From positions 43,926,811 to 43,990,810 of the forward strand of contig OZ025255.1 of NCBI GenBank assembly GCA_964019135.1: a DNA stretch of 64,000 nt. Direction: 5' to 3'. Under the pieces are notes generated by a model. That model had not been told where the DNA came from, did not search any database, and worked only from the letters and a program-made list of their open reading frames with translations. Below are positions 16,394 to 57,500 of this stretch, one piece after another (positions within the stretch are counted from its first letter, which is position 1; every line of letters begins with the position of its first letter). The position numbers and the translations under genes are program-made. The DNA is from Arenicola marina. Its lineage: Eukaryota > Annelida > Polychaeta > Arenicolidae.

Positions 16394-19300
16394 AAAGAAC
16401 GGAGCAGGGGTGAGGGAAGAACGGAGCAGGGGTGAGAGAAGAACGGAGCAGGGGTGGGGGAAGAACAGAGCAGGGGTGGGGGAAGAACGGAGTAGGGGTG
16501 AGGGAAGAACGGAGCAGGGGTGAGGGAAGAACGGAGCAGGGGTGAGGGAAGAAAGGAACAGGGGTGGGGGAAGAACGGAGTAGGGGTGGGGGAAGAACGG
16601 AGCAGGGGTGAGGGAAGAACGGAGCAGGGGTGAGGGAAGAACGGAGCAGGGGTGGGGGAAGAACGGAGCAGGGGTGGGGGAAGAACGGAGCAGGGGTGAG
16701 GGAAGAACGGAGCAGGGATGGGGGAAGAACGGAGCAGGGGTGAGGGAAGAACGGAGCAGGGTTGGGGGAAGAACGGAGCAGGGGTGAGGGAAGAACGGAG
16801 CAGGGGTGAGAGAAGAACGGAGCAGGGGTGAGGGAAGAACGGAGCAGGGGTGGGGGAAGAACGGAGCAGGGGTGAGGGAAGAACGGAGCAGGGGTGGGGG
16901 AAGAACGGAGTAGGGGTGGGAGAAGAACGGAGCAGGGGTGAGGGAAGAACGGAGCAGGGGTGAGGGAAGAACGGAGCAGGGGTGGGGGAAGAACGGAGCA
17001 GGGGTGAGGGAAGAACGGAGCAGGGGTGAGGGAAGAACGGAGCAGGGGTGGGGGAAGAACGGAGCAGGGATGGGGAAAGAACGGAGCAGAGGTGGGGGAA
17101 GAACGGAGCAGGGGTAAGGCAAGAACGGAGCGGGGGTGGGGGAAGAACGGAGCAGGGGTGAGGGAAGAACGGAGCAGGGTTGAGGGAAGAACGGAGCAGG
17201 GGTGGGGGAAGAACGGAGCAGGGGTGGGGGAAGAACGGAGCAGGGGTGGGGAAAGAACGGAGCAGGGGTGGGGGAAGAACGGAGCAGGGGTGGGGGAAGA
17301 ACGGAGCAGGGGTGGGGGAAGAACGGAGCAGGGGTGAGAGAAGAAAGGAGCAGGGGTGAGGGAAGAACGGAGCAGGGGTGAGGGAAGAAGGGAGCAGGGG
17401 TGAGAGAAGAACGGAGCAGGGGTGAGAGAAGAACGGAGCAGGGGTGAGAGAAGAACGAAGCAGGGGTGAGGGAAGAACGGAGCAGGGGTGAGGGAAGAAC
17501 GGAGCAGGGGTGAGGGAAGAACGGAGCAGGGGTGAGGGAAGAAAGGAACAGGGGTGAGAGAAGAACGGAGCAGGGGTGAGGGAAGAACGGAGCAGGGGTG
17601 GGGGAAGAACGGAGCAGGGGTGGGGGAAGAACGGAGCAGGGGTAAGGGAAGAACGGAGCAGGGGTGGGGGAAGAACGGAGCAGGGATGGGGAAAGAACGA
17701 GGCAGGGGTGAGAGAAGAACGGAGCATGGGTGAGGGAAGAACGGAGCAGGGGTGGGGGAAGAACGGAGCAGGGGTGGGGGAAGAACGGAGCAGGGGTGGG
17801 GGAAGAACGGAGCAGGGGTGAGGGAAGAAAGGAGCAGTGTTGATGGAAGAACGGAGCAGGGGTGGGGGGAAGAACGGAGCAGGGGTGAGGGAAGAACGGA
17901 GCAGGGGTGAGGGAAGAACGGAGCTGGGGCGAGGGAAGGACGGAGCAGGGGTGAGGGAAGAACGGAGCAGGGGTGGGGGAAGAACGGAGCAGGGGTGAGG
18001 GAAGAACGGAGCAGGGGTGGGGGAAGAAGGGAGCAGGGGTGGGGGAAGAACGGAGCAGCGGTGCGAGAAGAACGGAGCAGGGGTGAGGGCAGAACGGAGC
18101 AGGGGTGGGAGAAGAACGGAGCAGGGGTGAGGGAAGGACGGAGCAGGGGTGAGGGCAGAACGGAGCAGGGGTGGGGGAAGAACGGAGCAGTGGTTGGGAA
18201 AGAACGGAGCAGGGGTGAGGGAAGAACGGAGCAGGGGTGAGGAAAGAACGGAGCAGGGGTGAGGGAAGAACGGAGCAGGGGTGAGAGAAGAACGGAGCAG
18301 GGGTGGGGGAAGAACGGAGCAGTGGTGAGGGAAGGACGGAGCAGGGGTGGGGGAAGAACGGAGCAGGGGTGAGAGAAGAACGGAGCAGGGGTGAGGGAAC
18401 AACGGAGCAGGGGTGAGGGAAGAACGGAGCAGGGGTGAGGGAAGAACGGAGCAGGGGTGGGGGAAGAACGGAGCAGGGGTGGGGGAAAAACGGAGCAGGG
18501 GTGGGGGAAGAACGGAGCAGGGGTGGGGGAAGAACTGAGCAGGGGTGGGAGAAGAACGGAGCTGGGGCGAGAGAAGAACGGAGCAGGGAGGGGGGGGGGG
18601 AAGAACGGAGCAGGGGTGAGGGAAGAACGGAGCAGGGGTGAGGGAAGAAAGGAGCAGGGGTGAGGGAAGAACGGAGCAGGGGTGGGGGAAGAACGGAGCT
18701 GGGCGAGAGAAGAACGGAGCAGGGGTGAGGGAAGAACGGAGCAGGGGGGGGGGGAAGAACGGAGCAGGAGTGAGGGAAGAACGTAGCAGGGGTGGGGGAA
18801 GAACGGAGCAGGGGTGGGGGAAGAACAGAGCAGGGTTGGGGGAAGAACGGAGCAGGGGTGGGGGAAGAATGGAGCAGGGGTGGGGGAAGAACGGAGCAGG
18901 GGTGAGGGAAGAACGGAGCAGGGGTGGGGGAAGAACGGAGCTGGGGCGAGAGAAGAACGGAGCAGGGGTAAGGGAAGAACGGAGCAGGGAGGGGGGGAAC
19001 AACGGAGCAGGGGTGAGGGAAGAACGGAGCAGGGGTGGGGAAAGAACGGAGCAGGGGTGGGGGAAGAACGGAGCAGGGGTGGGGGAAGAACGGAGCAGGG
19101 GTGGGGGAAGAACGGAGCAGGGGTGGGGGAAGAACGGAGCAGGGGTGGGGGAAGAACGGAGCAGGGGTGAGGGAAGAAAGGAGCAGGGTTGATGGAAGAA
19201 CGGAGCAGGGGTGGGGGAAGAACGGAGCAGGGGTGAGGGAAGAACGGAGCAGGGGTGAGGGAAGAACGGAGCTGGGGCGAGGGAAGGACGGAGCAGGGGT

Positions 19301-19676
19301 GGGGGAAGAACGGAGCAGGGGTGAGGGAAGAACGGAGCAGGGGTGGGGGAAGAACGGAGCAGGGGTGGGGGAAGAACGGAGCAGGGGTAGGGGAAGAACA
19401 GAGCAGGGGTGGGGGAAGACCGGAGCAGGGGTGAGGGAAGAAAGGAGCAGGGGTGAGGGAAGAACGGAGCAGGGGTGGGGGAAGAACGGAGCAGGGGGGG
19501 GGGGAAGAACGGAGCAGGGGTGAGAGAAGAACGGAGCAGGGGTGGGGAAAGAACGGAGCAGGGGTGGGGGAAGAACAGAGCAGGGGTGGGGGAAGAACAG
19601 AGCAGGGGGGGGGGAGAACGAAGCAGGGGTGAAAGAAGAACGGAGCAGGGGTGAGGGAAGAACGGAGCAGGGGTGG
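16394..19676. repeat. Purine-rich minisatellite, 22-bp unit, about 150 copies
   Basis: The unit is GAACGGAGCAGGGGTGAGGG followed by AA, with GGTGGGGG and GGTGAGAG variants. Only three of the 22 bases are pyrimidines on the plus strand, so one strand is almost pure purine for 3.3 kb. Because 22 is not a multiple of 3, the lack of stop words keeps several frames open, giving artefactual frames of up to 1,120 codons (minus strand, Pro/Ser/Leu-rich). These are not genes. Imperfect copies with runs of 10-11 G occur near 18590 and 19500. Confidence 0.95.
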
Positions 19677-28445: not shown

Positions 28446-28770
28446 GAGACCGTTTCATCGTTTCATCTCATTGTCTCATTTTTTTTGGCCGGTTTCGCCT
28501 AAATGACCACGGGGGAGTGAATAGTAGAGATAACATAACGTGTATATAATACGCAATGAACCGACCTCGACGGCGTGGTCGTATAAGTAAGAGGGTCGTA
28601 TGATAGAGGTTATTTCACCTGCATGTTACACATGAGACTTCCCCAGCCCACTCATCACACCGTCTTTCTTACCAAGCGATTGTACAATGCGTGGACTAGT
28701 TATTACATTGTAATGTATCGACCGACACTGATGCACTGTTTATTTTTAATTCTCCGACAGAGTGCCCAAG

Positions 28771-31700
28771 ATGTTGTCGCGTCTATTCCGGGCCCACGGC
28801 CAGATGTGCGCCGCTCGCCCCTGGGAGGTGATCATTGGGACCATCACCCTGACCGCCTGCCTCATGTCTATGAGTCTCTTCTCTCCAAACACCAAGATCT
28901 GCGGCTGGAACTACCGCTGTGTCGAAGCTGACGTGAGTCTGATCCGGGTAATTTATGTTGGATATGAATCCATATGCATTTGCGTTCTGCGGGTACAGTA
29001 ATATTTCAGCTGCTTAACTTTACCGGCTTCATAGCTCAATTATGTTCATATATACTCTGTATGACAACACCGTTTATGTTCATATATACTCTGTATAACA
29101 ACACCGTTTATGTTCATATATACTCTGTATAACAACACCGTTTATGTTCATATATACTCTGTATAACAACACCGTTTATGTTCATATATACTCTGTATGA
29201 CAACACCGTTTATGTTCATATATACTCTGTATAACAACACCGTTTATGTTCATATATACTCTGTATAACAACACCGTTTATGTTCATATATACTCTGTAT
29301 GACAACACCGTTTATGTTCATATATACTCTGTATAACAACACCGTTTATGTTCATATATACTCTGTATAACAACACCGTTTATGTTCATATATACTCTGT
29401 ATAACAACACCGTTTATGTTCATATATACTCTGTATAACAACACCGTTTTAATTGTGTAAGAATATTTGTTATATGTAAACATTGTCCTTGTAGTGCATT
29501 CGCGAGGTCTCTTTTAAAATAAGAATCGGAAGGTATCATAATGCCGTCTTCAATGTTTGCTCCCTGAGGTATACCCTGATACGGCACTAGTGTTTCTATG
29601 TAGGCCCCACCCCTACTTTGCCACTCCTGCAATTGCTGTTTCCACCGATGGTTCGTCAATGTTTGCCTCTGTTCTATGCAGGACGTGATGAGTTCGGACA
29701 TACTTATTCTGACCATTACTCGATGCTTGGCTGTCTCGTACATGTATCTACAATTCAAGAATCTACGCAAGCTTGGATCAAAATATTTATTAGGTAAGCA
29801 TTATATTCCATATTTTAAAATGTACTAACGCTAGCCAATGGGAACATCCTTCTTTGTTACGATGATCGATGAACTTTAACTGAAGAACGGAAACTTTCAT
29901 TTAACTTTTCTGTTCAGCAAAAAATTGTATAAAAATAGAGCTAAGTAGTAGTTGTTGAATTTGTTGTGCATTTCCTCTATAGAGTGCTTTATCGTGAATG
30001 TTTCGTCTTCTTTTGCAGGAATTGCTGGTGTATTTACCGTTTTCTCCAGCTTTGTGTTCAGTATTGCTGTTGTGAACCTAGTCGGAAGTGATCTCACAGG
30101 GCTTCAGTGAGTATATCATACCTTCTCTTTCCATTATTATTACCTTATTATTATTATTATTATTATTATTAATTTTTGTACAAATAATAACATCATTGTT
30201 ATCAATGTGTCAGTGTTATTATTACGTTAAGAGTAGTAATTTTAGTATTTTTATGCTTCAATAAGCAATGGGGCGGTATTATATGCAAATTTTAAAGCTA
30301 TTTCTGTTTTCTTTCTCAAGTAAAGTAAATCACTTATCGTAGTATATTATTCTGGATTTGGAATAACCATTGGTCATGACATGGTTGTTTTAACGTTGGT
30401 GTTTTAGTGAAGCCCTGCCGTTCTTCCTGTTGCTTGTGGACCTCTCGCGAGCAAGTGTCTTGGCTCGTTTCGCCCTGAGCTCCACCTCGCAGGCAAGTCT
30501 TGCTGCATATACAGCTTTAAGCTATCATTTGATCAAAAAACTTTCCTTCACTCCTTTATTCTGTACTGTCGTGATCATTTGCGTTAATCCCTAGTACATG
30601 TACCGTACACACGCTAAAAAAAATCCCGTTTCAGCAATAATGAGTAACCTATATGAGTATCCGATATATTTCAGACCATATAATGTGTTGTAAACGATTG
30701 CTTTATCATGTGAAAATAAATATGTAGCATAAAGCCTGGCGCCTTACGTTACGAATACCCTGATATGTCATGTCCATGTTATGATTCAGGATGAGGTGGT
30801 TGATAACATAGGCCGCGGTATGGCCGTCCTGGGTCCCACCATCACCTTGGATGCCCTCGTTGAGACCCTGGTGATCGGGGTGGGCACCCTCTCCGGGGTC
30901 CACCGCCTGGAGACCATGTGCTGCTTCGGCTGCCTCTCGGTCATCGCGAACTACCTGGCCTTCATGACCTTCTACCCAGCCTGTCTGGCCCTGGTTCTCG
31001 AGGTAAGCCCCTGTAGTCGGGCAGATATTCAGCCTGTCTGGCCCTGGTTCTCGAGGTAAGCCCCTGTAGTCAAGCAGATATTCAGCCTGTCTGGCCCTGG
31101 TCCTCGAGGTAAGCCCCTGTAGTCGGGCAGATATTCAGCCTGTCAGGCCTTTGTCCTCGAGGTAAGCCCCTGTAGTCGGGCAGATATTCAGCCTGTCAGG
31201 CCCTTGTCCTCGAGGTAAGCCCCTGTAGTCGGGCAGATATTCAGCCTGTCAGGCCTTTGTCCTCGAGGTAAGCCCCTGTAGTCGGGCAGATATTCAGCCT
31301 GTCTGGCCCTGGTCTTCGAGGTAAGCCCCTGTAGTCGGGCAGATATTCAGCCTGTCTGGCCCTGGTCTTCGAGGTAAGCCCCTGTATTCGGGCAGATATT
31401 CAGCCTGTCTGGCCCTGGTCCTCGAGGTAAGCCCCTGTAGTCGGGCAGATATTCAGCCTGTCTGGCCCTGGTCTTCGAGGTAAGCCCCTGTAGTCGGGCA
31501 GATATTCAGCCTGTCTGGCCCTTGTCCTCGAGGTAAGCCCCTGTAGTCGGGCAGATATTCAGCCTGTCTGGCCCTGGTCCTCGAGGTAAGCCCCTGTAGT
31601 CGGGCAGATATTCAGCCTGTCTGGCCCTGGTCCTCGAGGTAAGCCCTGTAGTCGTGCAGATATTCAGCCTGTCTGGCCCTGGTCTTCGAGGTAAGGCCCT

Positions 31701-34700
31701 GTAGCCAAGCAGATATTCAGCCTGTCTGGCCCTGGTTCTCGAGGTAAGCCCCTGTAGTCGGGCAGATATTCAGCCTGTCTGGCCCTGGTCCTCGAGGTAA
31801 GGCCCTGTAGTCGGGCAGATATTAAGCCTGTCTGGCCTTGGTCCTCGAGATAAGCCCTGTAGTCGGGCAGATATTCAGCCTGTCTGGCCCTTGTCCTCGA
31901 GGTAAGCCCCCGTAGCCGGGCAGATATTCAGCCTGTCAGGCCCTTGTCCTCGAGGTAAGCCCCTGTAGTCGGGCAGATATTCAGCCTGTCAGGCCCTTGT
32001 CCTCGAGGTAAGCCCCTGTAGTCGGGCAGATATTCAGCCTGTCAGGCCTTTGTCCTCGAGGTAAGCCCCTGTAGTCGGGCAGATATTCAGCCTGTCTGGC
32101 CCTGGTCCTCGAGGTAAGCCCCTGTAGTCGGGCAGATATTCAGCCTGTGTGGCCCTGGTCCTCGAGGTAAGCCCTGTAGCCGATAAGATATTCAGCCTGT
32201 CTGGCCCTTGTCCTCGAGGTAAGCCCCTGTAGTCGGGCAGATATTCAGCCTGTCAGGCCCTTGTCCTCGAGGTAAGCCCCTGTAGTCGGGCAGATATTCA
32301 GCCTATCAGGCCCTTGTCCTCGAGGTAAGCCCCTGTAGTCGGGCAGGTATTCAGCCTGTCAGGCCTTTGTCCTCGAGGTAAGCCCCTGTAGTCGGGCAGA
32401 TATTCAGCCTGTCTGGCCCTTGTCCTCGAGGTAAGCCCCCGTAGTCGGGCAGATATTCAGCCTGTGTGGCCCTTGTCCTCGAGGTAAGCCCCCGTAGTCG
32501 GGCAGATATTCAGCCTGTCTGGCCCTTGTCCTCGAGGTAAGCCCCTGTAGTCGGGCAGATATTCAGCCTGTCAGGCCCTTGTCCTCGAGGTAAGCCCCTG
32601 TAGTCGGGCAGATATTCAGCCTGTCAGGCCTTGTCCTCGAGGTAAGCCCCTGTAGTCGGGCAGATATTCAGCCTGTCAGGCCTTTGTCCTCGAGGTAAGC
32701 CCCTGTAGTCGGGCAGATATTCAGCCTGTCTGGCCCTGGTCTTTGAGGTAAGCCCCTGTAGTCGGGCAGATATTCAGCCTTTCTGGCCCTGGTCTTCGAG
32801 GTAAGCCCCTGTATTCGGGCAGATATTCAGCCTGTCTGGCCCTGGTCCTCGAGGTAAGCCCCTGTAGTCGGGCAGATATTCAGCCTGTCTGGCCCTGGTC
32901 TTCGAGGTAAGCCCCTGTAGTCGGGCAGATATTCAGCCTGTCTGGCCCTGGTCCTCGAGGTAAGCCCCTGTAGTCGGGCAGATATTCAGCCTGTCTGGCC
33001 CTGGTCCTCGAGGTAAGCCCCTGTAGTCGGGCAGATATTCAGCCTGTCTGGCCCTGGTCCTCGAGGTAAGCCCTGTAGTCGTGCAGATATTCAGCCTGTC
33101 TGGCCCTGGTCTTCGAGGTAAGGCCCTGTAGCCAAGCAGATATTCAGCCTGTCTGGCCCTGGTTCTCGAGGTAAGCCCCTGTAGTCGGGCAGATATTCAG
33201 CCTGTCTGGCCCTGGTCCTCGAGGTAAGGCCCTGTAGTCGGGCAGATATTAAGCCTGTCTGGCCTTGGTCCTCGAGATAAGCCCTGTAGTCGGGCAGATA
33301 TTCAGCCTGTCTGGCCCTTGTCCTCGAGGTAAGCCCCCGTAGCCGGGCAGATATTCAGCCTGTCAGGCCCTTGTCCTCGAGGTAAGCCCCTGTAGTCGGG
33401 CAGATATTCAGCCTGTCAGGCCCTTGTCCTCGAGGTAAGCCCCTGTAGTCGGGCAGATATTCAGCCTGTCAGGCCTTTGTCCTCGAGGTAAGCCCCTGTA
33501 GTCGGGCAGATATTCAGCCTGTCTGGCCCTGGTCCTCGAGGTAAGCCCCTGTAGTCGGGCAGATATTCAGCCTGTGTGGCCCTGGTCCTCGAGGTAAGCC
33601 CTGTAGCCGATAAGATATTCAGCCTGTCTGGCCCTTGTCCTCGAGGTAAGCCCCTGTAGTCGGGCAGATATTCAGCCTGTCAGGCCCTTGTCCTCGAGGT
33701 AAGCCCCTGTAGTCGGGCAGATATTCAGCCTATCAGGCCCTTGTCCTCGAGGTAAGCCCCTGTAGTCGGGCAGGTATTCAGCCTGTCAGGCCCTTGTCCT
33801 CGAGGTAAGCCCCTGTAGTCGGGCAGATATTCAGCCTGTCTGGCCCTTGTCCTCGAGGTAAGCCCCCGTAGTCGGGCAGATATTCAGCCTGTCTGGCCCT
33901 TGTCCTCGAGGTAAGCCCCTGTAGCCGGGCAGATATTCAGCCTGTCAGGCCCTTGTCCTCGAGGTAAGCCCCTGTAGCCGGGCAGATATTCAGCCTGTCT
34001 GGCCCTTGTCCTCGAGGTAAGCCCCTGTAGTCGGGCAGATATTCAGCCTGTCTGGCCCTTGTCCTCGAGGTAAGCCCCTGTAGTCGGGCAGATATTCAGC
34101 CTGTCTGGCCCTGGTCTTCGAGGTAAGCCCCTGTAGTCGGGCAGATATTCAGCCTTTCTGGCCCTGGTCTTCGAGGTAAGCCCCTGTATTCGGGCAGATA
34201 TTCAGCCTGTCTGGCCCTGGTCCTCGAGGTAAGCCCCTGTAGTCGGGCAGATATTCAGCCTGTCTGGCCCTGGTCTTCGAGGTAAGCCCCTGTAGTCGGG
34301 CAGATATTCAGCCTGTCTGGCCCTGGTCCTCGAGGTAAGCCCCTGTAGTCGGGCAGATATTCAGCCTGTCTGGCCCTGGTCCTCGAGGTAAGCCCCTGTA
34401 GTCGGGCAGATATTCAGCCTGTCTGGCCCTGGTCCTCGAGGTAAGCCCTGTAGTCGTGCAGATATTCAGCCTGTCTGGCCCTGGTCTTCGAGGTAAGGCC
34501 CTGTAGCCAAGCAGATATTCAGCCTGTCTGGCCCTGGTTCTCGAGGTAAGCCCCTGTAGTCGGGCAGATATTCAGCCTGTCTGGCCCTGGTCCTCGAGGT
34601 AAGGCCCTGTAGTCGGGCAGATATTAAGCCTGTCTGGCCTTGGTCCTCGAGATAAGCCCTGTAGTCGGGCAGATATTCAGCCTGTCTGGCCCTTGTCCTC

Positions 34701-37700
34701 GAGGTAAGCCCCCGTAGCCGGGCAGATATTCAGCCTGTCAGGCCCTTGTCCTCGAGGTAAGCCCCTGTAGTCGGGCAGATATTCAGCCTGTCAGGCCCTT
34801 GTCCTCGAGGTAAGCCCCTGTAGTCGGGCAGATATTCAGCCTGTCAGGCCTTTGTCCTCGAGGTAAGCCCCTGTAGTCGGGCAGATATTCAGCCTGTCTG
34901 GCCCTGGTCCTCGAGGTAAGCCCCTGTAGTCGGGCAGATATTCAGCCTGTGTGGCCCTGGTCCTCGAGGTAAGCCCTGTAGCCGATAAGATATTCAGCCT
35001 GTCTGGCCCTTGTCCTCGAGGTAAGCCCCTGTAGTCGGGCAGATATTCAGCCTGTCAGGCCCTTGTCCTCGAGGTAAGCCCCTGTAGTCGGGCAGATATT
35101 CAACCTATCAGGCCCTTGTCCTCGAGGTAAGCCCCTGTAGTCGGGCAGGTATTCAGCCTGTCAGGCCCTTGTCCTCGAGGTAAGCCCCTGTAGTCGGGCA
35201 GATATTCAGCCTGTCTGGCCCTTGTCCTCGAGGTAAGCCCCCGTAGTCGGGCAGATATTCAGCCTGTCTGGCCCTTGTCCTCGAGGTAAGCCCCTGTAGT
35301 CGGGCAGATATTCAGCCTGTCTGGCCCTGGTCCTCGAGGTAAGGCCCTGTAGTCGGGCAGATATTAAGCCTGTCTGGCCTTGGTCCTCGAGATAAGCCCT
35401 GTAGTCGGGCAGATATTCAGCCTGTCTGGCCCTTGTCCTCGAGGTAAGCCCCCGTAGCCGGGCAGATATTCAGCCTGTCAGGCCCTTGTCCTCGAGGTAA
35501 GCCCCTGTAGTCGGGCAGATATTCAGCCTGTCAGGCCCTTGTCCTCGAGGTAAGCCCCTGTAGTCGGGCAGATATTCAGCCTGTCAGGCCTTTGTCCTCG
35601 AGGTAAGCCCCTGTAGTCGGGCAGATATTCAGCCTGTCTGGCCCTGGTCCTCGAGGTAAGCCCCTGTAGTCGGGCAGATATTCAGCCTGTGTGGCCCTGG
35701 TCCTCGAGGTAAGCCCTGTAGCCGATAAGATATTCAGCCTGTCTGGCCCTTGTCCTCGAGGTAAGCCCCTGTAGTCGGGCAGATATTCAGCCTGTCAGGC
35801 CCTTGTCCTCGAGGTAAGCCCCTGTAGTCGGGCAGATATTCAGCCTATCAGGCCCTTGTCCTCGAGGTAAGCCCCTGTAGTCGGGCAGGTATTCAGCCTG
35901 TCAGGCCCTTGTCCTCGAGGTAAGCCCCTGTAGTCGGGCAGATATTCAGCCTGTCTGGCCCTTGTCCTCGAGGTAAGCCCCCGTAGTCGGGCAGATATTC
36001 AGCCTGTCTGGCCCTTGTCCTCGAGGTAAGCCCCTGTAGTCGGGCAGATATTCAGCCTGTCAGGCCCTTGTCCTCGAGGTAAGCCCCTGTAGCCGGGCAG
36101 ATATTCAGCCTGTCTGGCCCTTGTCCTCGAGGTAAGCCCCTGTAGTCGGGCAGATATTCAGCCTGTCTGGCCCTTGTCCTCGAGGTAAGCCCCTGTAGTC
36201 GGGCAGATATTCAGCCTGTCTGGCCCTGGTCTTCGAGTTAAGCCCCTGTAGTCGGGCAGATATTCAGCCTTTCTGGCCCTGGTCTTCGAGGTCAGCCCCT
36301 GTATTCGGGCAGATATTCAGCCTGTCTGGCCCTGGTCCTCGAGGTAAGCCCCTGTAGTCGGGCAGATATTCAGCCTGTCTGGCCCTGGTCTTCGAGGTAA
36401 GCCCCTGTAGTCGGGCAGATATTCAGCCTGTCTGGCCCTGGTCCTCGAGGTAAGCCCCTGTAGTCGGGCAGATATTCAGCCTGTCTGGCCCTGGTCCTCG
36501 AGATAAGCCCCTGTAGTCGGGCAGATATTCAGCCTGTCTGGCCCTGGTCCTCGAGGTAAGCCCTGTAGTCGTGCAGATATTCAGCCTGTCTGGCCCTGGT
36601 CTTCGAGGTAAGGCCCTGTAGCCAAGCAGATATTCAGCCTGTCTGGCCCTGGTTCTCGAGGTAAGCCCCTGTAGTCGGGCAGATATTCAGCCTGTCTGGC
36701 CCTGGTCCTCGAGGTAAGGCCCTGTAGTCGGGCAGATATTAAGCCTGTCTGGCCTTGGTCCTCGAGATAAGCCCTGTAGTCGGGCAGATATTCAGCCTGT
36801 CTGGCCCTTGTCCTCGAGGTAAGCCCCCGTAGCCGGGCAGATATTCAGCCTGTCAGGCCCTTGTCCTCGAGGTAAGCCCCTGTAGTCGGGCAGATATTCA
36901 GCCTGTCAGGCCCTTGTCCTCGAGGTAAGCCCCTGTAGTCGGGCAGATATTCAGCCTGTCAGGCCTTTGTCCTCGAGGTAAGCCCCTGTAGTCGGGCAGA
37001 TATTCAGCCTGTCTGGCCCTGGTCCTCGAGGTAAGCCCCTGTAGTCGGGCAGATATTCAGCCTGTGTGGCCCTGGTCCTCGAGGTAAGCCCTGTAGCCGA
37101 TAAGATATTCAGCCTGTCTGGCCCTTGTCCTCGAGGTAAGCCCCTGTAGTCGGGCAGATATTCAGCCTGTCAGGCCCTTGTCCTCGAGGTAAGCCCCTGT
37201 AGTCGGGCAGATATTCAGCCTATCAGGCCCTTGTCCTCGAGGTAAGCCCCTGTAGTCGGGCAGGTATTCAGCCTGTCAGGCCCTTGTCCTCGAGGTAAGC
37301 CCCTGTAGTCGGGCAGATATTCAGCCTGTCTGGCCCTTGTCCTCGAGGTAAGCCCCCGTAGTCGGGCAGATATTCAGCCTGTCTGGCCCTTGTCCTCGAG
37401 GTAAGCCCCTGTAGTCGGGCAGATATTCAGCCTGTCAGGCCCTTGTCCTCGAGGTAAGCCCCTGTAGCCGGGCAGATATTCAGCCTGTCTGGCCCTTGTC
37501 CTCGAGGTAAGCCCCTGTAGTCGGGCAGATATTCAGCCTGTCTGGCCCTTGTCCTCGAGGTAAGCCCCTGTAGTCGGGCAGATATTCAGCCTGTCTGGCC
37601 CTTGTCCTCGAGGTAAGCCCCTGTAGCCGGGCAGATATTCAGCCTGTGTGGCCCTGGTCCTCGAGGTAAGCCCCTGTAGTCGGGCAGATATTAAGCCTGT

Positions 37701-40700
37701 CTGGCCTTGGTCCTCGAGGTAAGCCCCTGTAGTCGGGCAGATATTCAGCCTGTCTGGCCCTTGTCCTCGAGGTAAGCCCTGTAGTCGGGCAGATATTCAG
37801 CCTGTGTGGCCCTTGTCCTCGAGGTAAGCCCCCGTAGTCGGGCAGATATTCAGCCTGTCTGGCCCTTGTCCTCGAGGTAAGCCCCTGTAGTCGGGCAGAT
37901 ATTCAGCCTGTCAGGCCCTTGTCCTCGAGGTAAGCCCCTGTAGTCGGGCAGATATTCAGCCTGTCAGGCCCTTGTCCTCGAGGTAAGCCCCTGTAGTCGG
38001 GCAGATATTCAGCCTGTCTGGCCCTTGTCCTCGAGGTAAGCCCCTGTAGTCGGGCAGATATTCAGCCTGTCAGGCCCTTGTCCTCGAGGTAAGCCCCTGT
38101 AGTCGGGCAGATATTCAGCCTGTCAGGCCCTTGTCCTCGAGGTAAGCCCCTGTAGTCGGGCAGATATTCAGCCTGTCTGGCCCTGGTCTTCGAGGTAAGC
38201 CCCTGTAGTCGGGCAGATATTCAGCCTGTCTGGCCCTGGTCCTCGAGGTAAGCCCCTGTAGCCGGGCAGATATTCAGCCTGTCTGGCCATGGTTCTCGAG
38301 GTAAGCCCCTGTAGTCGGGCGGATATTCAGCCTGTCAGGCCCTTGTCCTCGAGGTAAGCCCCCGTAGTCGGGCAGATATTCAGCCTGTCAGGCCCTTGTC
38401 CTCGAGGTAAGCCCCCGTAGTCGGGCAGATATTCAGCCTGTCTGGCCCTTGTCCTCGAGGTAAGCCCCCGTAGTCGGGCAGATATTCAGCCTGTCTGGCC
38501 CTTGTCCTCGAGGTAAGCCCCTGTAGTCGGGCAGATATTCAGCCTGTCAGGCCCTTGTCCTCGAGGTAAGCCCCTGTAGTCGGGCAGATATTCAGCCTGT
38601 CAGGCCCTTGTCCTCGAGGTAAGCCCCTGTAGTCGGGCAGATATTCAGCCTGTCAGGCCTTTGTCCTCGAGGTAAGCCCCTGTAGTCGGGCAGATATTCA
38701 GCCTGTCTGACCCTTGTCCTCGAGGTAAGCCCCTGTAGTCGGGCAGATATTCAGCCTGTCAGGCCTTTGTCCTCGAGGTAAGCCCCTGTAGTCGGGCAGA
38801 TATTCAGCCTGTCTGGCCCTTGTCCTCGAGGTAAGCCCCTGTAGTCGGGCAGATATTCAGCCTGTCAGGCCTTTGTCCTCGAGGTAAGCCCCTGTAGTCG
38901 GGCAGATATTCAGCCTGTGTGGCCCTGGTCCTCGAGGTAAGCCCTGTAGTCGGGCAGATATTCAGCCTGTCAGGCCCTGGTCCTCGAGGTAAGCCCTGTA
39001 GCCGATAAGATATTCAGCCTGTCTGGCCCTGGTCTTCGAGGTAAGCCCCTGTAGTCGGGCAGATATTCAGCCTGTGTGGCCCTTGTCCTCGAGGTAAGCC
39101 CCTGTAGTCGGGCAGATATTCAGCCTGTCTGGCCCTGGTCCTCGAGGTAAGCCCCTGTAGTCGGGCAGATATTCAGCCTGTCTGGCCCTTGTCCTCGAGG
39201 TAAGCCCCTGTAGTCGGGCAGATATTCAGCCTGTCAGGCCTTTGTCCTCGAGGTAAGCCCCTGTAGTCGGGCAGATATTCAGCCTGTGTGGCCCTGGTCC
39301 TCGAGGTAAGCCCTGTAGCCGATAAGATATTCAGCCTGTCTGGCCCTTGTCCTCGAGGTAAGCCCCTGTAGTCGGGCAGATATTCAGCCTGTCTGGCCCT
39401 GGTCCTCGAGGTAAGCCCCTGTAGTCGGGCAGATATTCAGCCTGTCTGGCCCTGGTCTTCGAGGTAAGCCCCTGTAGTCGGGCAGATATTCAGCCTGTCT
39501 GGCCCTGGTCCTCGAGGTAAGCCCCTGTAGCCGGGCAGATATTCAGCCTGTCTGGCCCTGGTCCTCGAGGTAAGCCCCTGTAGTCGGGCAGATATTCAGC
39601 CTGTGTGGCCCTGGTCCTCGATGTAAGCCCCTGTAGCCGGGCAGATATTCAGCCTGTCTGGCCCTGGTCCTCGAGGTAAGCCTTGTAGTCGGGCAGATAT
39701 TCAGCCTGTCTGGCCCTGGTCCTCGAGGTAAGCCCTGTAGTCGGGCAGATATTCAGCCTGTCTGGCCCTGGTCCTCGAGGTAAGCCCTGTAGTCGTGCAG
39801 ATATTCAGCCTGTCAGGCCCTTGTCCTCGAGGTAAGCCCCTGTAGTCGGGCAGATATTCAGCCTGTCAGGCCCTTGTCCTCGAGGTAAGCCCCTGTAGTC
39901 GGGCAGATATTCAGCCTGTTTGGCCCTGGTCCTCGAGGTAAGCCCTGTAGCCGGGCAGATATTCATTCAGCTTCGCCCAGTGGTATGGATGTGAAAGTTG
40001 GCCAGTCGCGCCCGTGAGAATTGGTTGATATGAAATTTATTTATTTACTGAGGATAGTGAATACACTAATCAATGGCCGTCTCAGTTACCACGTGATTTA
40101 TGTAATAACTATGTACTCGCCAGGCAGAGAGGCCTTAATTGTTGTTATCTCGTTGAAAATCAGTGCAATCCCATGATGTACTATTGACGTTGTGCCTAAA
40201 GTTTATGAACGATTTCCATTTCCAGGCTTTCGCGCGCAGTGGGTCTTAACATGGTTTATGTTTATATGTGAAATTTGGCTAGGTAGTTGTGTGAACTGCC
40301 CAAAATTATACCCTAATGCTGTTGTCCTGCTTGCAATCAACGCTTGGTGTCGCTGCGGTGTTGCAGGTGTCCCGGGAGAGGAACCAGGGTCGGCCTGTCT
40401 GGCAGTTACAGCAACAGCTGACTAAAGTACTGCAAGAACAGGAGAAAAAACCCAACCCTGTCACACAGAGAGTCAAGATCATCATGGTGAGTAGTGTGAC
40501 ATCACATTGAGGGTCAAGATCACCATGGTGAGTAGTGTGACGTCACATTGAGGGTCAAGATCATCATGGTGAGTAGTGTGACGTCACATCGAGAGTCAAG
40601 ATCATCATGGTGAGTAGTGTGACGTCACATTGAGGGTCAAGATCATCATGGTGAGTAGTGTGACGTCACATTGAGGGTCAAGATCATCATGGTGAGCAGT

Positions 40701-43700
40701 GTGACGTCATATTGAGGGTTAAGATTACCATGTTGAGTAGTGTGACGTCACATTGAGGTCAAGATCATCATCATGAGCAGTGTGACGTCACATTGAGGGT
40801 TAAGATCACCATGGTGAGTAGTGTGACGTCACATTAAAGGTCAAGATCACCATGGTGAGTAGTGTGACGTCACATTGAGGGTCAAGATCATCATGGTGAG
40901 TAGTGTGACGTCACATCGAGAGTCAAGATCATCATGGTGAGTAGTGTGACGTCACATTGAGGGTCAAGATCATCATGGTGAGTAGTGTGACGTCACATTG
41001 AGGGTCAAGATCATCATGGTGAGCAGTGTGACGTCATATTGAGGGTTAAGATTACCATGTTGAGTAGTGTGACGTCACATTGAGGTCAAGATCATCATCA
41101 TGAGCAGTGTGACGTCACATTGAGGGTTAAGATCACCATGGTGAGTAGTGTGACGTCACATTAAAGGTCAAGATCACCATGGTGAGTAGTGTGACGTCAC
41201 ATTGAGGGTCAAGATTTTCGTGGCTCAAGTGAATATTGGTTAAAATTAGATATATTGCGTATATATTTATATGCATGAGCAAATTCCAATCTTCGTCGAT
41301 AGGTGTATATACATATACATAATATTATATATATTTATATATATATATATGTAATATTATAACAGCAATGAACTTTTAACTGATCTTGCCCTTTTGCCCC
41401 CTCCTTCCCCGCCCCGCCTTCTGTCCCTCCAGTCTGCAGGGCTTGTGCTGGTGCACTACCACAGCCGCTATCTGGCTGGTGCCGCAGCCGACGATTCGGG
41501 GAGCGAGCTGACAGGCATGCCGGGAAGGATGACCAGTCTGCCCCAGGACTACATCAACCCGGAGAAACCTCTCTGGTACTTCTACATGCTCAAGTGAGTG
41601 CTCGCCTTGTTTATGTTGGGCTGTCGTTGGGCTTGTATGGGTCACCCAAGTGGCCGAGTAGGCATTGGGTTTCAGTATTGTCGAGTGTGCTCTGCTACGC
41701 CAACGAAAGCGGCCGGTGCGTGGTTCGAACCCCATCTGTGCAAATGCCATGTCTGTGCAGGATAAAGATCTCTTTCTTCACAAAGAGTGTGAAGTTACTC
41801 TCGGAGACTCCTATCTACCTTGACCCTTTCCATTGTCTGGATATGACCAACAGATGTTAACGCGTCCTACTTGAACCAAACCAAACCTTGGGCTTGATAT
41901 TTAATCAAAAAGGACAGGACCTTTAAAAAAGGACGACTATTTAGGAACACTTGCTAAACTTCAACTGAGAGAGATTCAACAAGTCCTTGATATAAATTTC
42001 CTATATTCAAGGGAAAACTGAAAATAGTGTGCGCCACCAGTTTCAATTTTAGTATTTCTGAAGCTTTTATCTCTTGTAAAATAGGATTGTGCTGATCCTA
42101 TTTGTATCCATTGTAGGATACAATGAAATAATATATAAGCATGTAATATGCAGGTATTATTGGTAGGTGATATTATGGCTCCTGTTGGGACGCGTCTCTG
42201 TATGTGTATGACCCATGTGTGGACGGGTTGATGACACCAAATCTCCGTCGTCTTACCGCAGACTGGCCTCCCCCAGTTTGGACTACTTGGTGACCCTGGG
42301 GCTAGGTCTGGTGCTGGCCGTCAAGTATATCTTCGTCGACGAGGAATGCGCGGACCCCAAGGAGGTACGGATTATGCGAGAGGATGGAGCCCCAGCCCAC
42401 CCCAAGGCCGACCCCCATCACCGTCCCCCCGCCGTGCTGGACACCTGTGACGGGGAGGAACCCATCACCCAGTCCGAGACGAGCGGGACGGCCTGGCAGG
42501 CGGCCCAGGCCGGGAAGACAGGTGAGTCCTGGCAGCTGTCTGGCAGACGGTCCACACTGCGACTGGTCGGGCGTAACCTGTGTGCACAGAAATGTGGCCT
42601 AAACGCCTTGATTGGTTGATTCAGTGACTGATTCATTCCCTGATATCATTGATTGATTGCTTGATTTATTGATGGATTCATTCACTGATTGATTTCATTC
42701 ATTGATGGATTCGTTCACTGATTCAGTGATTGATTCATTCAATTCACTGATTGATTTGATCGATTCTTTGACTGATTTCATTGATTGATTCATTTACTGA
42801 TTCATTGATTGATTCGTTCACTGATTGATTGATTGACTCATTCACTGACCCTGATTGATTCGTTCACTGATTCATTGATTCATTATTCATTCACTGATTG
42901 ATTGATTGATTCATACCGCTCCATGCATTTCAGCGTGCAATGTGCTGCACAACCCCGGTATGGGTGGGTGGGACTGCCACAGCACGCCCGAGTCAGGACT
43001 ATGTTTTAAGTATCCGTTCGCTTGCTGGACGGGCCGTGTAGTCATTCACCCCTTGCCATACCATCTGCCGTGCACCCACAACCCATCATGATATGCGTAG
43101 GGGTGTAGAGATCGGTGCGTTTGGTGGGGGAGTGGGTGGGGGGGTCAGAAACTCTGGTGTTTTCATGTGTTAAGGTGATGGGCTGGCTGGGTTGGTAGGG
43201 TAGGTGGCATGGTTGGGTTGGTAGGGTAGTTGCCGGGGTCAGATAGTTATAGTATTGGTTGCTCACAGTTCACGTTTTGCAATCTCTGTCGGAGCATTGG
43301 CTGCTCACAGTTCACGTTTTACAATCTCTGTCGGAGCAGTCGCTGCTTACAGTACATGATTCAGAATATCTGTCGGAGCACTGGTTGCTCACAGTTCAAG
43401 TTTTACAGTCTCTGTCGGAGCATTGGCTGCTTACAGTACATGTTTTAGAATCTGTCAGAGCATTGGTTGCTCATAGTACATGATTCATAATGGCTGTCGG
43501 AACATTAGTTGCTCACAGTTTATATTCCAGAATCTCTGTCGGAGCATTGGCTGCTCACAATACATGTTTTAGAATCTCTGTTGGGGACATTGGCTCCTCG
43601 CAGTACATGTTTTAGAATCTCTGTCGGAGCATTGGCTGCTCACAATACATGCTTTAGAATCTCTGTTGGGGACATTGGCTCCTCGCAGTACATGTTTTAG

Positions 43701-46700: not shown

Positions 46701-48314
46701 GTGTGTCCCTATTGTGCAAACAGCATTGCCATGTACACACAACACGTCACTCAGATGGCAGCCCAAAATAATACTGTACACATAATATTGCATTGTACAC
46801 AGACGGCAGTCAATTAAACCGCTTCCCAGTGTTGTGTAACATTGTAAGACATGTTTATATAGTCTGATGGATCGCTGTCTTCTTGATATAATTATGTTCA
46901 ACTTGCATCATCAAAGTGGAGCCAACATTTCCTGTGGGGAGGTACAATTTTCGTAATGACGATACCGCCACTCTTTCACAAGTGTCTGTACATGCATCAC
47001 GTTAAAAGGTAAAGTGACATGAACAGCTATAGATCAATCGTCTGTATTAAACAATTGTATTTTGGTCTCTGTTCGTTGCAGACAACCCGTCCATGGTGTC
47101 GAAGGCTTCCTTTATTATTGGCGGGGACAGCAGCGAGGAGGACTCAGAGGAGGACCATCGTTACCCAGAGCAACCGTTGCCCTCCAAACAAGTAGTTTCC
47201 AAGGAAACACAGACAGAAACTGTTGAGAAGAAAGTTTATGAAGGACCCAGTCGAACTCTGGAAGAATGCATGGCTATTATGAAGTCTGATGTAAGACATT
47301 CCTGTAGTATTATTTCATTATCGTTTCCTTATGCGGCTAGATAACACTCTCGGGTTGGCCGATTGGTAGTCACAGGTGACTAGATATAAGCTTAACAATC
47401 AGATTATGTTTTTTAATCAAACTATGTGATGGACGTAATTGCATAATTCCCAGGACATTCATGTTTATAATCAGCGCGCATGTTTTCACTCTCGGTACGC
47501 CACCAGGCGGGACCAGCTGAACTAAGTGATGAGGAGATCATACGCTTGGTGCGCTGCAAGCAGATCCCGGCCTACAAGCTGGAGAGTCGGCTGGGCGACC
47601 ACGTGCGTGGCGTGGAGATAAGGCGACATCTGGTGGGCGGAGATTTACCCGACCAGCACGCGCTCAGCAAGCTGCCATATCTACACTACGATTATTCCTT
47701 TGTAAGTCACATACAACTCAATGTCTCGCATACGAAAGATGTGTGTCTCAATTGTTCGTTTGTAAGTCACTTAAAGTTCGTGATCTCCCCTACGAGAAAA
47801 GTATGTCTCATTTGTTGTGTTCGTGCTGAGACTATATTCTGTATGTGCGGCATTTATTGTAACTCACATATAATGTCTGTGTTCATATTTGCATCTCCCG
47901 TGAAAGTGATTTTTGTTAACGAACAATGATTATATACATAAAGTATACATAAATATTATACGTAAATTGCATACATAGACTATAACTAAATTATACATAA
48001 ATTACATACAAAAAGTATACATAAATTATACATAAATTATACATAAATTACATACATAATGTATATGTGTATGCAAGTGGGAAAGTTAAAATTGACACAT
48101 ACACTTATACATATACACATCTATAGATATATCAATGTGTTTACTTATATGACAGGCGGACGGGGCGTGCTGTGAGAATATCGTCGGGTATCTGCCAGTC
48201 CCGGTCGGGGTGGCGGGACCCCTGCTGCTCGACGGCCTCAAATACACGGTTCCTATGGCAACGACAGAGGGTTGCCTGGTAGCCAGCACCAACAGAGGAT
48301 GCCGTGCGCTCGGG
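28771..48314 (+). CDS. HMGCR: HMG-CoA reductase, membrane domain to start of catalytic domain (3' part missing)
   Basis: HMGCR is the ER membrane enzyme that reduces HMG-CoA to mevalonate using NADPH. Exons: 28771-28932 (ATG at 28771 after acceptor 28760), 29682-29793, 30019-30106, 30408-30492, 30790-31002, 40367-40486, 41433-41593, 42262-42521, 47082-47290, 47507-47701, 48156-48314. Phases agree throughout and give 588 residues. Visible: HPWEVI-like start ([10 protein letters not shown]), the sterol-sensing domain (about 55-220), and TM8 ([11 protein letters not shown]). A Glu/Ser-rich linker follows, then [16 protein letters not shown] and [16 protein letters not shown] with the catalytic Glu at about 573. 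The Insig-contact motif reads YMYL (human YIYF). Lysines matching human Lys89 and Lys248 are present. The donor after 30492 is GC (CAG-GCAAGT). The remaining 300 or so catalytic residues are absent. The frame ends just before a 200-N gap and does not resume. Confidence 0.96.
29040..29449 (+). repeat. Minisatellite, 34-bp unit, 12 copies, HMGCR intron 1
   Basis: The unit contains TATGTTCATATATACTCTGT and ATAACAACACCGTT, with a few copies reading ATGACAAC. It is very homogeneous, suggesting recent expansion. It lies between coding exons 28771-28932 and 29682-29793 and holds no splice-site copy. Confidence 0.95.
31003..39965 (+). repeat. 53-bp minisatellite made of an HMGCR exon end plus its 5' splice site, about 169 copies
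   Basis: The unit is 27 intron bases (GTAAGCCCCTGTAGTCGGGC, then AGATATT) plus 26 bases identical to the end of the preceding exon (CAGCCTGTCTGGCC, then CTGG..CTCGAG). The real exon end at 30977-31002 is itself the first copy. Every unit thus ends in GAG-GTAAGC, a strong donor. Variants GTAGCCAAGC, GTAGCCGATAAG, TGTCAGG and TTCGAG recur in a fixed order. This gives higher-order blocks of about 1.37-1.43 kb (26-27 units), with one block of 740 bp. The array fills about 96% of the 9.36-kb intron. Confidence 0.97.
40487..41215 (+). repeat. 41-bp minisatellite made of an HMGCR exon end plus donor, with CRE sites, about 18 copies
   Basis: The real exon ends GTCAAGATCATCATG and is followed by GTGAGTAGTGTGAC. 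The repeat unit joins these two pieces again and again, so each unit restates the exon end and a GTGAGT donor (GTGAGC in some). Seventeen units carry the perfect palindrome TGACGTCA. The first reads TGACATCA. A block of eight units (about 328 bp) is itself duplicated, as shown by the TATTGAGGGTTAAGATTACC variant near 40710 and 41038. Confidence 0.96.
41636..41877 (+). mobile_element. tRNA-derived SINE in HMGCR intron
   Basis: The head has an A-box-like AAGTGGCCGAGTAGG and a perfect B box, GGTTCGAACCC (about 41723). The body GCAGGATAAAGATC, TTCTTCACAAAGAGTG, CCATTGTCTGGATATGACC matches the SINE at 24842-25085, so both belong to one family with a conserved core. It lies between exons 41433-41593 and 42262-42521. 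Confidence 0.75.
42602..42912 (+). repeat. Degenerate GATT/CATT-rich simple repeat
   Basis: Irregular runs of TGATTGATTCATTCACTGAT follow about 80 bp after the donor at 42522. Units are mixtures of GATT, CATT and CACTGATT. Confidence 0.85.
43240..44325 (+). repeat. Minisatellite, 42-43-bp unit, about 26 copies
   Basis: The unit contains GGAGCATTGGTTGCTCACAG and TACATGTTTTAGAATCTCTGTC. A variant (TTGGGGACATTGGCTCCTCG) alternates with it, and a block of several units (about 43440-43600) recurs near 43960-44120. Short frames of 60-90 codons across it ([10 protein letters not shown]-type) are artefacts of the repeat. Confidence 0.93.
44618..45207. mobile_element. 590-bp MITE-like element just before the internal HMGCR promoter
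   Basis: The ends are inverted repeats. The left end reads TTTAGTTTCGCTGTATTCAC then CGA, and the right end, reversed, reads TTTAGACTCGCTGTATTCAC then CGA, differing at only two or three of 23 bases. No transposase frame. It contains one RFX X-box-like site (44930-44943). Target duplications are not clear. Confidence 0.68.
45266..45314 (+). promoter_or_regulatory. Candidate internal HMGCR promoter (ATTGG boxes, TATA)
   Basis: Inverted CCAAT boxes (ATTGG) lie at 45266-45270 and 45288-45292, followed by TATAAATA at 45307-45314. The spacing would put a start near 45335-45345, about 170 bases before the ATG at 45512. The order and spacing look like a core promoter, but all three words are short and could be chance. 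Confidence 0.42.
45472..45500 (+). promoter_or_regulatory. RFX X-box-like motifs
   Basis: GCTACCATAGCAAC at 45472-45485 fits the X-box consensus GYNRCC-N(1-3)-RRYAAC exactly. GCTAGCATAGCAAC follows at 45487-45500 with one mismatch. An identical GCTACCATAGCAAC lies at 44930-44943. RFX factors bind such sites in ciliary and other promoters. Function here is unknown. Confidence 0.45.
45512..45869 (+). CDS. Candidate alternative first exon of HMGCR
   Basis: ATG at 45512 (TCACTAATGGCG) opens a 119-codon frame that ends at a good donor, CACG-GTAAGT, in phase 1. That is the phase accepted by the HMGCR exon at 47082, giving [19 protein letters not shown]. The membrane-form exon ending at 42521 is also phase 1 and joins 47082 in frame without this exon. 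An in-frame TAG lies 15 bases before the ATG, and no pyrimidine-backed acceptor of the right phase was found, which argues for a first exon rather than a cassette. The peptide has basic stretches (RRGRKS, DRRRRE), an acidic run (GEEEEPGE) and a hydrophobic end ([20 protein letters not shown]). Third positions are strongly G/C in the second half. A CRE (TGACGTCA) sits at 45661-45668. It could instead be an internal exon linked through an exon I missed. Confidence 0.5.
45878..45984 (+). repeat. G-rich short tandem tract just after a donor site
   Basis: GGCTGGGGGC and GGCTGGCGGCT words are repeated about ten times, giving many G runs of three to five on the sense strand within 110 bases of the 45870 donor. 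This has G-quadruplex potential in DNA and in the nascent RNA. Confidence 0.75.
47690..47811 (+). repeat. Two-copy duplication of an HMGCR exon end and donor
   Basis: ATTATTCCTTT-GTAAGTCACA (exon end and real donor at 47702) is echoed about 60 bases later by ATTGTTCGTTT-GTAAGTCACT. The two roughly 60-base units align from end to end (ending GTGTCTCA and TATGTCTCA) at about 70% identity. The second donor is an unused duplicate inside the intron. Confidence 0.7.
47935..48070. repeat. AT-rich ATACATAAATT tandem tract
   Basis: Repeats of TATACATAAATTATACATAA and TACATACATA words in the intron before the 48156 exon. Low-complexity sequence only. Confidence 0.7.
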
Positions 48315-48758: not shown

Positions 48759-48958
48759 NNNNNNNNNNNNNNNNNNNNNNNNNNNNNNNNNNNNNNNNNN
48801 NNNNNNNNNNNNNNNNNNNNNNNNNNNNNNNNNNNNNNNNNNNNNNNNNNNNNNNNNNNNNNNNNNNNNNNNNNNNNNNNNNNNNNNNNNNNNNNNNNNN
48901 NNNNNNNNNNNNNNNNNNNNNNNNNNNNNNNNNNNNNNNNNNNNNNNNNNNNNNNNNN
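48759..48958. other. Assembly gap, 200 N
   Basis: Exactly 200 unknown bases, a typical placeholder length. HMGCR breaks off 445 bases before it, and none of its remaining exons follow it. Open frames drawn across the N run are meaningless. Confidence 0.99.
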
Positions 48959-54593: not shown

Positions 54594-57500
54594 TTATTCA
54601 GTTGTTTTTCTTTCATATACAAAGGGCGCAAGGACAAAAAGTAAGACATAATCACATCTTAAATTCCATGTGGACAAATACGGCCAAACGCCAACGTTTG
54701 CACCATTACAAGAAATCAATGTGTTTGAGAAGGGTTTATCAGACTGACCAGAATTATTCACTATGGCAAGTACCGTTCTTGCCCTTCGGTTCGCCAACCA
54801 GCTGCCAGCTCTATCATAGCTGAAGAAAAAGGGCCGACACGGTCAATATCCAAACAATTTGCACCGCACCATGACAGGTGGGATTAGAACCGTACCATGA
54901 CAGGTGGGATTAGAACCGCACCATGACAGGTGGGCTTAGAACCGTACCATGACAGGTGGGCTTAGAACCGTACCATGGCAGGTGGGATTAGAACCGTACC
55001 ATGACAGGTGGGGTTAGAAACGTACCATGGCAGGTGGGATTAGAACCGTACCATGACAGGTGGGGTTAGAACCGTACCATGGCAGGTGGGATTAGAACCG
55101 TACCATGACAGGTGGGGTTAGAACCGTACCATGGCAGGTGGGATTAGAACCGTACCATGGCAGGTGGGATTAGAACCGTACCATGGCAGGTGGGATTAGA
55201 ACCGTACCATGGCAGGTGGGATTTTTATCGTACCGTACCACCGTAGCCAAATTAGATTACTTACAGTAGACACATGCTGCTCATAGATTACCCACAGTAG
55301 GGAGACATGCTGATGATATGACTACCCACAGTAGGGAGACATGCTGATCATACAACTACTCACAGTAGGGAGACATGTTGATCATACAACTACCCACAGT
55401 AGGGAGACATGCTGATCATATGACTACCCACAGTAGGGAGACATGCTGATCATACAACTACCCACAGTAGGGAGACATGCTTATCATACAACTACCCACA
55501 GTAGGGAGACATGCTGATCATATGACTACCCACAGTAGGGAGACATGCTGATCATACAACTACTCACAGTAGGGAGACATGTTGATCATACAACTACCCA
55601 CAGTGGGGAGACATGCTGATCATATGACTACCCACAGTAGGGAGACATGCTGATCATACAACTACCCACAGTAGGGAGACATGCTGATCATACAACTACC
55701 CACAGTAGGGAGACATGCTTATCATACAACTACCCACAGTAGAGAGACATGCTGATCAGACTACTACCCACAGTAGGGAGACATGCTTATCATACAACTA
55801 CCCACAGTAGGGAGACATGCTGATCATACAACTACCCACAGTAGAGAGACATGCTGATCATACAACTACCCACAGTAGGGAGACATGCTGATCATACAAG
55901 TACCCACAGTAGAGAGACATGCTGATCATACAACTACCCACAGTAGGGAGACATGCTGATCATACAACTACCCACAGTAGAGAGACATGCTTATCATACA
56001 ACTACCCACAGTAGGGAGACATGCTGATCATACAACTACCCACAGTAGAGAGACATGCTGATCATACAACTACCCACAGTAGGGAGACATGTTGATCATA
56101 CAACTACCCACAGTGGGGAGACATGCTGATCATATGACTACCCACAGTAGGGAGACATGCTGATCATACAACTACCCACAGTAGGGAGACATGCTGATCA
56201 TACAACTACCCACAGTAGGGAGACATGCTTATCATACAACTACCCACAGTAGAGAGACATGCTGATCAGACTACTACCCACAGTAGGGAGACATGCTTAT
56301 CATACAACTACCCACAGTAGGGAGACATGCTGATCATACAACTACCCACAGTAGAGAGACATGCTGATCATACAACTACTCACAGTAGGGAGACATGCTG
56401 ATCAGACTACTACCCACAGTAGGGAGACATGCTGATCATACAACTACCCACAGTAGGGAGACATGCTTATCATACAACTACCCACAGTAGAGAGACATGC
56501 TGATCAGACTACTACCCACAGTAGGGAGACATGCTTATCATACAACTACCCACAGTAGGGAGACATGCTGATCATACAACTACCCACAGTAGAGAGACAT
56601 GCTGATCATACAACTACCCACAGTAGGGAGACATGCTGATCACACGACTACCCACAGTAGAGAGACATGCTGATCATACAACTACCCACAGTAGGGAGAC
56701 ATGCTGATCACACGACTACCCACAGTAGAGAGACATGCTGATCATACAACTACCCACAGTAGGGAGACATGCTGATCACACGACTACCCACAGTAGAGAG
56801 ACATGCTGATCATACAACTACCCACAGTAGGGAGACATGCTGATCACACGACTACCCACAGTAGGGAGACATGCTTATCATACAACTACCCACAGTAGAG
56901 AGACATGCTGATCAGACTACTACCCACAGTAGGGAGACATGCTTATCATACAACTACCCACAGTAGGGAGACATGCTGATCATACAACTACCCACAGTAG
57001 AGAGACATGCTGATCATACAACTACCCACAGTAGGGAGACATGCTGATCACACGACTACCCACAGTAGAGAGACATGCTGATCATACAACTACCCACAGT
57101 AGGGAGACATGCTGATCACACGACTACCCACAGTAGAGAGACATGCTGATCATACAACTACCCACAGTAGAGAGACATGCTGATCATACAACTACCCACA
57201 GTAGGGAGACATGCTGATCATATGACTACCCACAGTAGGGAGACATGCTTATCATACAACTACCCACAGTAGGGAGACATGCTGATCATACGACTACCCA
57301 TAGTAGGGAGACATGCTGATCACACGACTACCCATAGTAGGGAGACATGCTGATCACACGACTACCCACAGTAGAGAGACATGCTGATCATACAACTACC
57401 CACAGTAGAGAGACATGCTGATCATACAACTACCCACAGTAGGGAGACATGCTGATCATATGACTACCCACAGTAGGGAGACATGCTTATCATACAACTA

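Follow-up and report, generated by a model that had tools for sequence, protein, structure and literature searches.

How is the correct splice donor chosen when the same donor is repeated in tandem some 170 times, and does such a row of donors serve the gene that carries it? The question is raised by a stretch of the Arenicola marina genome, 64,000 nucleotides in length (C8:43926811-43990810 in the 867-Mb assembly; hereafter the window, with positions counted from its first letter), in which a 53-bp minisatellite lies across an exon-intron junction of HMGCR, the gene for HMG-CoA reductase. Judging from the sequence, we consider it probable that the array is a mirage, which is the name used in amphioxus for boundary-spanning tandem repeats; that is, a silent tandem duplication across the splice junction would have grown into a minisatellite, while splicing kept to the first donor. 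The features on which the argument depends are the following, where a slash in a motif marks the exon-intron boundary:

30790-31002, plus strand: HMGCR sterol-sensing-domain exon, with acceptor CAG/GATGAG, donor GAG/GTAAGC and a phase-0 end in ...CTC GAG/
30977-39965, plus strand: 53-bp minisatellite across the exon-intron junction, 170 units, from Tandem Repeats Finder (TRF) and our own segmentation
30977-31029, plus strand: unit 1, with the authentic donor; exact copies at 31718, 33145, 34520 and 36635
31003-40366, plus strand: intron of 9.4 kb, nearly all 53-bp array, with GT at 31003 and gttgCAG at 40360-40366
40367-40486, plus strand: next HMGCR exon, 40 codons, ending ...AAG ATC ATC ATG/, through which the frame runs on as LVLE/VSRERN...RVKIIM

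The results showed that the 53-bp unit is composed of 26 nt of exon tail and 27 nt of intron start and is in register with the exon boundary, which is itself supported by homology: the exon ends in CTCGAG at 30997-31002, the GT follows at 31003, and the exon part of the array covers 30977-31002. The TRF call had a period of 53, 170.0 copies, 94% matches and a score of 15633, and our own segmentation gave 170 units, namely 147 of 53 bp, 22 of 52 bp, and one end unit of 54 bp. The core GAG/GTAAG is kept in 161 of the 170 units and the GT in 163, which means that the authentic donor is accompanied by 160 decoys with an identical core, and both ends of the array pass into unique sequence. An earlier note on this DNA, made from the letters alone, had described the unit as a copy of the junction and the authentic donor as simply the first of a row of about 170, and both descriptions were borne out, for an array whose length and sequence come from one assembled sequence of one individual. 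The assignment of the exon to HMGCR in that note was confirmed as well: residues 1-70 of the 71 translated aligned to PDB 8djk, the membrane domain of HMG-CoA reductase, with an E value of 1.5e-31, the alignment stopping at ...LVLE, exactly at the donor, and the Pfam sterol-sensing domain was matched with an E value of 6.2e-11. The acceptor that had been placed at 40366 is correct with a small clarification, as its AG occupies 40365-40366 and the next exon begins at 40367.

That local sequence cannot mark the true donor, as had been supposed, also proved right. Unit 1 is identical over 53 bp to the four units listed above, so that the same 53-bp donor context occurs five times, and in one copy or more the match to unit 1 extends over 72 nt, from -26 to +46. 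What singles out the true donor must therefore be its position, exon context further upstream than -26, or sequence past about +46. Random choice among the 161 donors would yield less than 1% correct transcripts, and we infer that position or context outside the unit must decide.

The intron is of phase 0, and when the alternative donors 2 to 7 were tested in silico, each gave a premature stop. Donor 2, which adds 53 nt, shifts the frame and leads to a stop in the next exon, and donors 3 to 7, which add 106 nt and more, share one in-frame TAA located within the GTAAGC of unit 2, a stop that precedes every later donor as well. The earlier expectation had been that one or two extra units break the frame and three meet a TAA; the frame break with one unit stands, whereas the TAA is already met with two. 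The possibility of a coding array was rejected by the 53-bp period and the in-frame stops, and mostly also by the periods at other loci (surveyed below), where 15 of 17 donor-spanning arrays have periods that are not multiples of 3, suggesting that the copies are mostly not frame-preserving; among acceptor arrays, 3 of 6 have periods that are multiples of 3.

The premature stops count in favor of a regulatory role, in which partial use of internal donors would produce stop-containing, degraded transcripts and the length of the array would set the productive share of HMGCR mRNA. HMGCR is a classical feedback-controlled enzyme, which we also counted for this role, together with the 160 decoys of the same core and the rarity of variants within that core, where from -3 to +5 only 9 of 1360 cells are variant in comparison to 326 of 7650 elsewhere in the unit. 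By columns, however, the donor varies as the rest of the unit does (4 of 9 columns variable versus 22 of 44), and three other eight-column windows are equally quiet (4 of 53 with the core counted). Selection on the decoy donors was thus tried and remained ambiguous, and the variant frequency was not read as selection because it hinges largely on which few variants were copied in block duplications. Donors of myosin, dynein, CCT, and kinesin genes have arrays of a similar kind, which looks like a habit of the genome and not a device of HMGCR. The suggestion that the array tunes HMGCR output was therefore not supported, and we regard such a role as unlikely.

Two further uses of the units can be judged from splice-site scores. 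The 23-nt exon copy had been likened to a microexon, and the likeness holds only loosely, as the acceptor is weak (crude score 4.5) and just 30 nt between neighboring copies would be available for an intron. A score as low as this was found for 1 of the 81 surveyed acceptors, which were those picked as best-scoring, while two further AGs of the unit reach 5.5 and 6.0, on a level with the two authentic HMGCR acceptors at 6.0. In the second use, a splicing ladder, the true donor would be joined to the AG in whichever unit comes later; since each unit has the exon end immediately ahead of its GT, this would restore the GAG/GTAAGC donor in an almost unchanged context, and the 9-kb intron could be removed in whole-unit steps with no trace in the mRNA. 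Junction-spanning arrays genome-wide would then be recursive-splicing tracks instead of inert decoys. The AG in question scores 2.5 as an acceptor, which is below all 81 surveyed acceptors, and we find the ladder extremely improbable.

For the mirage, the history would start with a tandem duplication reaching from the exon into the intron. The first copy would keep the whole exon and a working donor, the extra copies would land in the intron and be removed, and the duplication would be silent while the first donor wins; decoys would be harmless if skipped, and their use would lead to a stop codon. Splicing may be kept at unit 1 through recognition of the exon as one entity bounded by its acceptor and the nearest downstream donor, and the donor of unit 1 would moreover be transcribed first, with about 9 kb of array still to come. 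Both exon definition and the advantage of the donor transcribed first are established splicing concepts. Growth to 170 units would have proceeded by unequal exchange or slippage, including recent duplications of blocks of at least 14 units.

Within the array, 40 types can be told apart among the 170 units; their succession is ordered and recurs at lags of 26, 27, 40 and 66 units, and the mean pairwise difference between units is 5.9%. A set of near-identical blocks was found as follows:

31718-37376, plus strand: four blocks of 742 bp (14 units), starting at 31718, 33145, 34520 and 36635 and mutually 99.7-100% identical

In these blocks 740 to 742 of the 742 positions are identical, and a 27-unit comparison gave 1406 of 1426, a near-identity such as block duplication would leave. 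It may also be counted for misassembly, by which a few true units would have been expanded into a long array, along with a gap of 200 N at 48759-48958, about 9 kb downstream of the array, and with the absence of most HMGCR catalytic exons from what was found in the assembly. Misassembly is nevertheless very unlikely in our view, given that the 40 unit types are ordered, that unique sequence flanks the array on both sides, and that junction-spanning arrays recur at other loci. A dispersed repeat or transposon was rejected, as a 21-base probe with at most one mismatch had 138 matches genome-wide and all 138 fall in the window; as far as this probe shows, the array sequence is private to the HMGCR locus.

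The next HMGCR donor is amplified too, which is an addition to the earlier account. This second array and the remaining HMGCR exons are as follows:

40460-41215, plus strand: another array across a junction, 41 bp x 18.5, each unit joining the final 27 nt of the exon to 14 nt of intron
41433-41593, plus strand: following HMGCR exon, ending ...WYFYML, placed from sequence, donor not amplified
48156-48314, plus strand: HMGCR catalytic-domain exon, the last found in the assembly, edges placed from sequence, Pfam match

The 41-bp array holds 14 ATGGTGAG copies, counting the authentic donor ATCATG/GTGAGT at 40487, and TRF reported no array across the donor at 41593/41594. The HMGCR domains recovered from the assembly with Pfam and PDB were the membrane exon and one catalytic exon. 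Catalytic exons beyond about position 85 of PF00368, i.e., after 48314, were not found assembly-wide by Pfam or with a piece of the human protein, an empty answer which alone shows nothing. In this assembly the HMGCR copy looks incomplete, with most of the catalytic domain not found.

The recurrence of such arrays was assessed in two samples of exons, with splice sites placed by homology and a simple scoring rule. Sample 1 was drawn from Pfam-matched exons of unrelated, conserved genes, those of myosin heads and dynein AAA_6, and comprised 88 exons in 40 stretches totaling 153 kb. All 77 exon matches of one listing and 51 of the 94 of the other were entered, which makes 128, and the surveyed stretches contained 88 of them. 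Most of the 43 rows left out were outside the surveyed DNA or, in about 18 cases, short repeated copies. A donor was called in 84 of the 88 exons and an acceptor in 81. Two further proper exons, with no array at either end of either, were added later, and the random-point test and edge profile given below were run without them. Sample 2 comprised 24 CCT and kinesin exons, 12 of each: those for CCT came from the first 14 of 49 matches, and those for kinesin from the first 18 of 133, where five on unplaced contigs and one other were left out. The copy threshold was loosened to 1.9, in comparison to 2.5 for sample 1, because the flank was just 300 bases. Kinesin-like matches with internal stops were seen on the small unplaced contigs C390:12-653, C536:12679-13687 and C504:46195-47024 and are possibly pseudogenes or DNA of another organism.

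In sample 1, arrays initially spanned 12 of 84 donors and 5 of 81 acceptors. One weak donor case, at C12:10169582, was dropped and counted as not spanned, its exon-tail repetition not being convincing, which with the added exons gave a final figure of 11 of 86 donors for myosin and dynein. Repetition of the exon tail together with the donor is plain to see in the remaining 11 cases, which have 3 to 32 copies within the surveyed DNA. In sample 2, the CCT and kinesin genes had 4 of 23 donors and 1 of 21 acceptors spanned. For the four gene families combined, arrays spanned 15 of 109 donors, in comparison to 6 of 104 acceptors, a difference with P = 0.066. In one myosin gene (L018 and L026, C7:32812-32815 kb, periods of 32 and 37 bp) two donors are amplified, as is the case in HMGCR. 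An acceptor-side mirage was seen in a dynein-type gene (L050, C1:2966919-2967821), where the intron end and exon start recur about 11 times at a period of 87 bp.

Tandem arrays make up about 31% of the surveyed DNA, so the raw material for mirages is plentiful, and much of the donor effect is due to a genome that is simply full of tandem arrays. Some of our findings nonetheless weigh against the mirage as a wholly neutral product. Arrays spanned 11 of 83 donors in comparison to 5.25 expected from random intron points, a number reached in 68 of 5000 draws, and this roughly twofold excess over the intron background is not obviously explained by pure neutrality. Few stretches of the unit have variants as seldom as the donor core, a possible hint that the decoys are constrained. 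Tolerance of the array might also reflect a damaged HMGCR copy, yet other genes have the like feature; if the copy were dead, the decoys would mean less, and the arrays in other genes would still need explaining.

The donor excess is also an argument for an active process, in which tandem duplication would be targeted to donors, e.g., where transcription pauses, U1 binds, or RNA-DNA hybrids form at the edge of the exon. The 5' edges of arrays pile up there, with 11 in the 60 nt before donors and 9 in the 60 nt after, in comparison to 0 to 5 per 60-nt bin from +60 to +1200, and the acceptor side, which has a similar GC content, shows no excess (5 of 81 spanned versus 5.73 expected). The enrichment is modest, however, and could come from selection against arrays at acceptors and deeper in exons; the direct comparison of donors with acceptors is not significant once the weak case is dropped. 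The lack of an acceptor excess fits worse tolerance of extra acceptors upstream of an exon, though the numbers are small. Taken as a whole, we give targeting only a slim chance, and the mirage is the reading we retain.

The HMGCR array resembles the amphioxus mirages as far as the available parts of those papers describe them, i.e., boundary-spanning tandem repeats in Adh3, the globins BflGb6 and BflGb9, troponin C, and PGBD5 (PMC3087553, PMC3902484). In both, a minisatellite-like duplication of the exon-intron boundary puts exon and intron sequence into each unit, splice signals are present in many units, the units are homogenised, and several genes are affected. The differences are the phylum, ours being an annelid, and the copy number, which is 170 and 18.5 for the HMGCR arrays in comparison to 6 and 3 units in two haplotypes of one amphioxus globin gene and one duplicate in these portions of text. 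Length instability was noted for the amphioxus mirages (PMC3087553, PMC3902484), and reverse transcription PCR was taken there to suggest that they leave regular splicing undisturbed (PMC3087553), according to the same portions; the HMGCR array is known from genome sequence alone.

Among annelids, the first introns of earthworm metallothionein genes contain minisatellites with units of about 180 bp on average (PMC12783039), which are like the HMGCR array in being large, intronic, of higher-order structure, and in an annelid gene. In the part of that source available, the units are described as intronic and a splice junction in the unit is not described, whereas the HMGCR units include the junction. 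The Rogers model, in the portion of PMC3087553 that discusses it, has introns gained through tandem duplication of AG/GT proto-splice sites, and there too a duplication carrying a splice signal creates new potential splice sites; unlike that model, the HMGCR array lengthens an existing intron and no new intron is seen. No report of other junction-spanning arrays in annelids, earthworms or animals at large was found among the matches listed, in a search that mostly did not reach subscription literature. On sequence grounds, the HMGCR array would therefore be of the mirage type, and what sets it apart is the number of copies, the phylum, and how frequent such arrays appear to be in the genome.

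The phylum is in agreement with the mitochondrial contig of the assembly (C762, 15,942 bp), on which the long protein reading frames are all on one strand in the order nad4L, nad4, rrnS, rrnL, nad1, nad3, nad2, cox1, cox2, atp8, cox3, nad6, cob, atp6, non-coding, nad5, with cox1 named by Pfam, the other proteins by eye, and atp8 and the rRNA genes placed by their tRNA neighbors. This is the annelid order, including a non-coding region between trnR and trnH, which the parts seen of two papers give for Clitellata, Maldanidae, and Terebellidae (PMC2639372, PMC4866719). Amphioxus had been considered as the source in view of the mirage literature; a Pfam search for GFP gave no match, as it gave none in the control genomes either, and it was the mitochondrial order that indicated an annelid.

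Elsewhere in the window, an elongation-factor-2-like gene, named by eye, lies upstream on the plus strand at 4009-9085, where two open reading frames match the EF-Tu GTP-binding domain and TRF found no array within the gene. The Pfam scan assigned no family to the reading frame at 28750-28929. Further large minisatellites are located at 16395-19675 (22 bp x 149), 55272-57625 (34 bp x 69) and 54863-55223 (26 bp x 14), the 26-bp unit of the last including CAG/GTGGGA, with no gene assigned there.

Introns with junction-spanning arrays are places where gene predictors and short-read junction calls may fail. If the present reading is right, junction-spanning minisatellites would extend to annelids, a phylum for which no report was among the matches listed. 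Studies of how one donor is picked from several equal ones usually rely on a few engineered copies. One HMGCR exon offers a 53-bp donor context that occurs five times unchanged, the decoys of identical core numbering 160 in all, and is thus a natural test of splice-site choice. Our small sample suggests that about one donor in seven of this genome is within such an array (15 of 109), and RNA data could measure the rule that the first donor wins in vivo across many genes.

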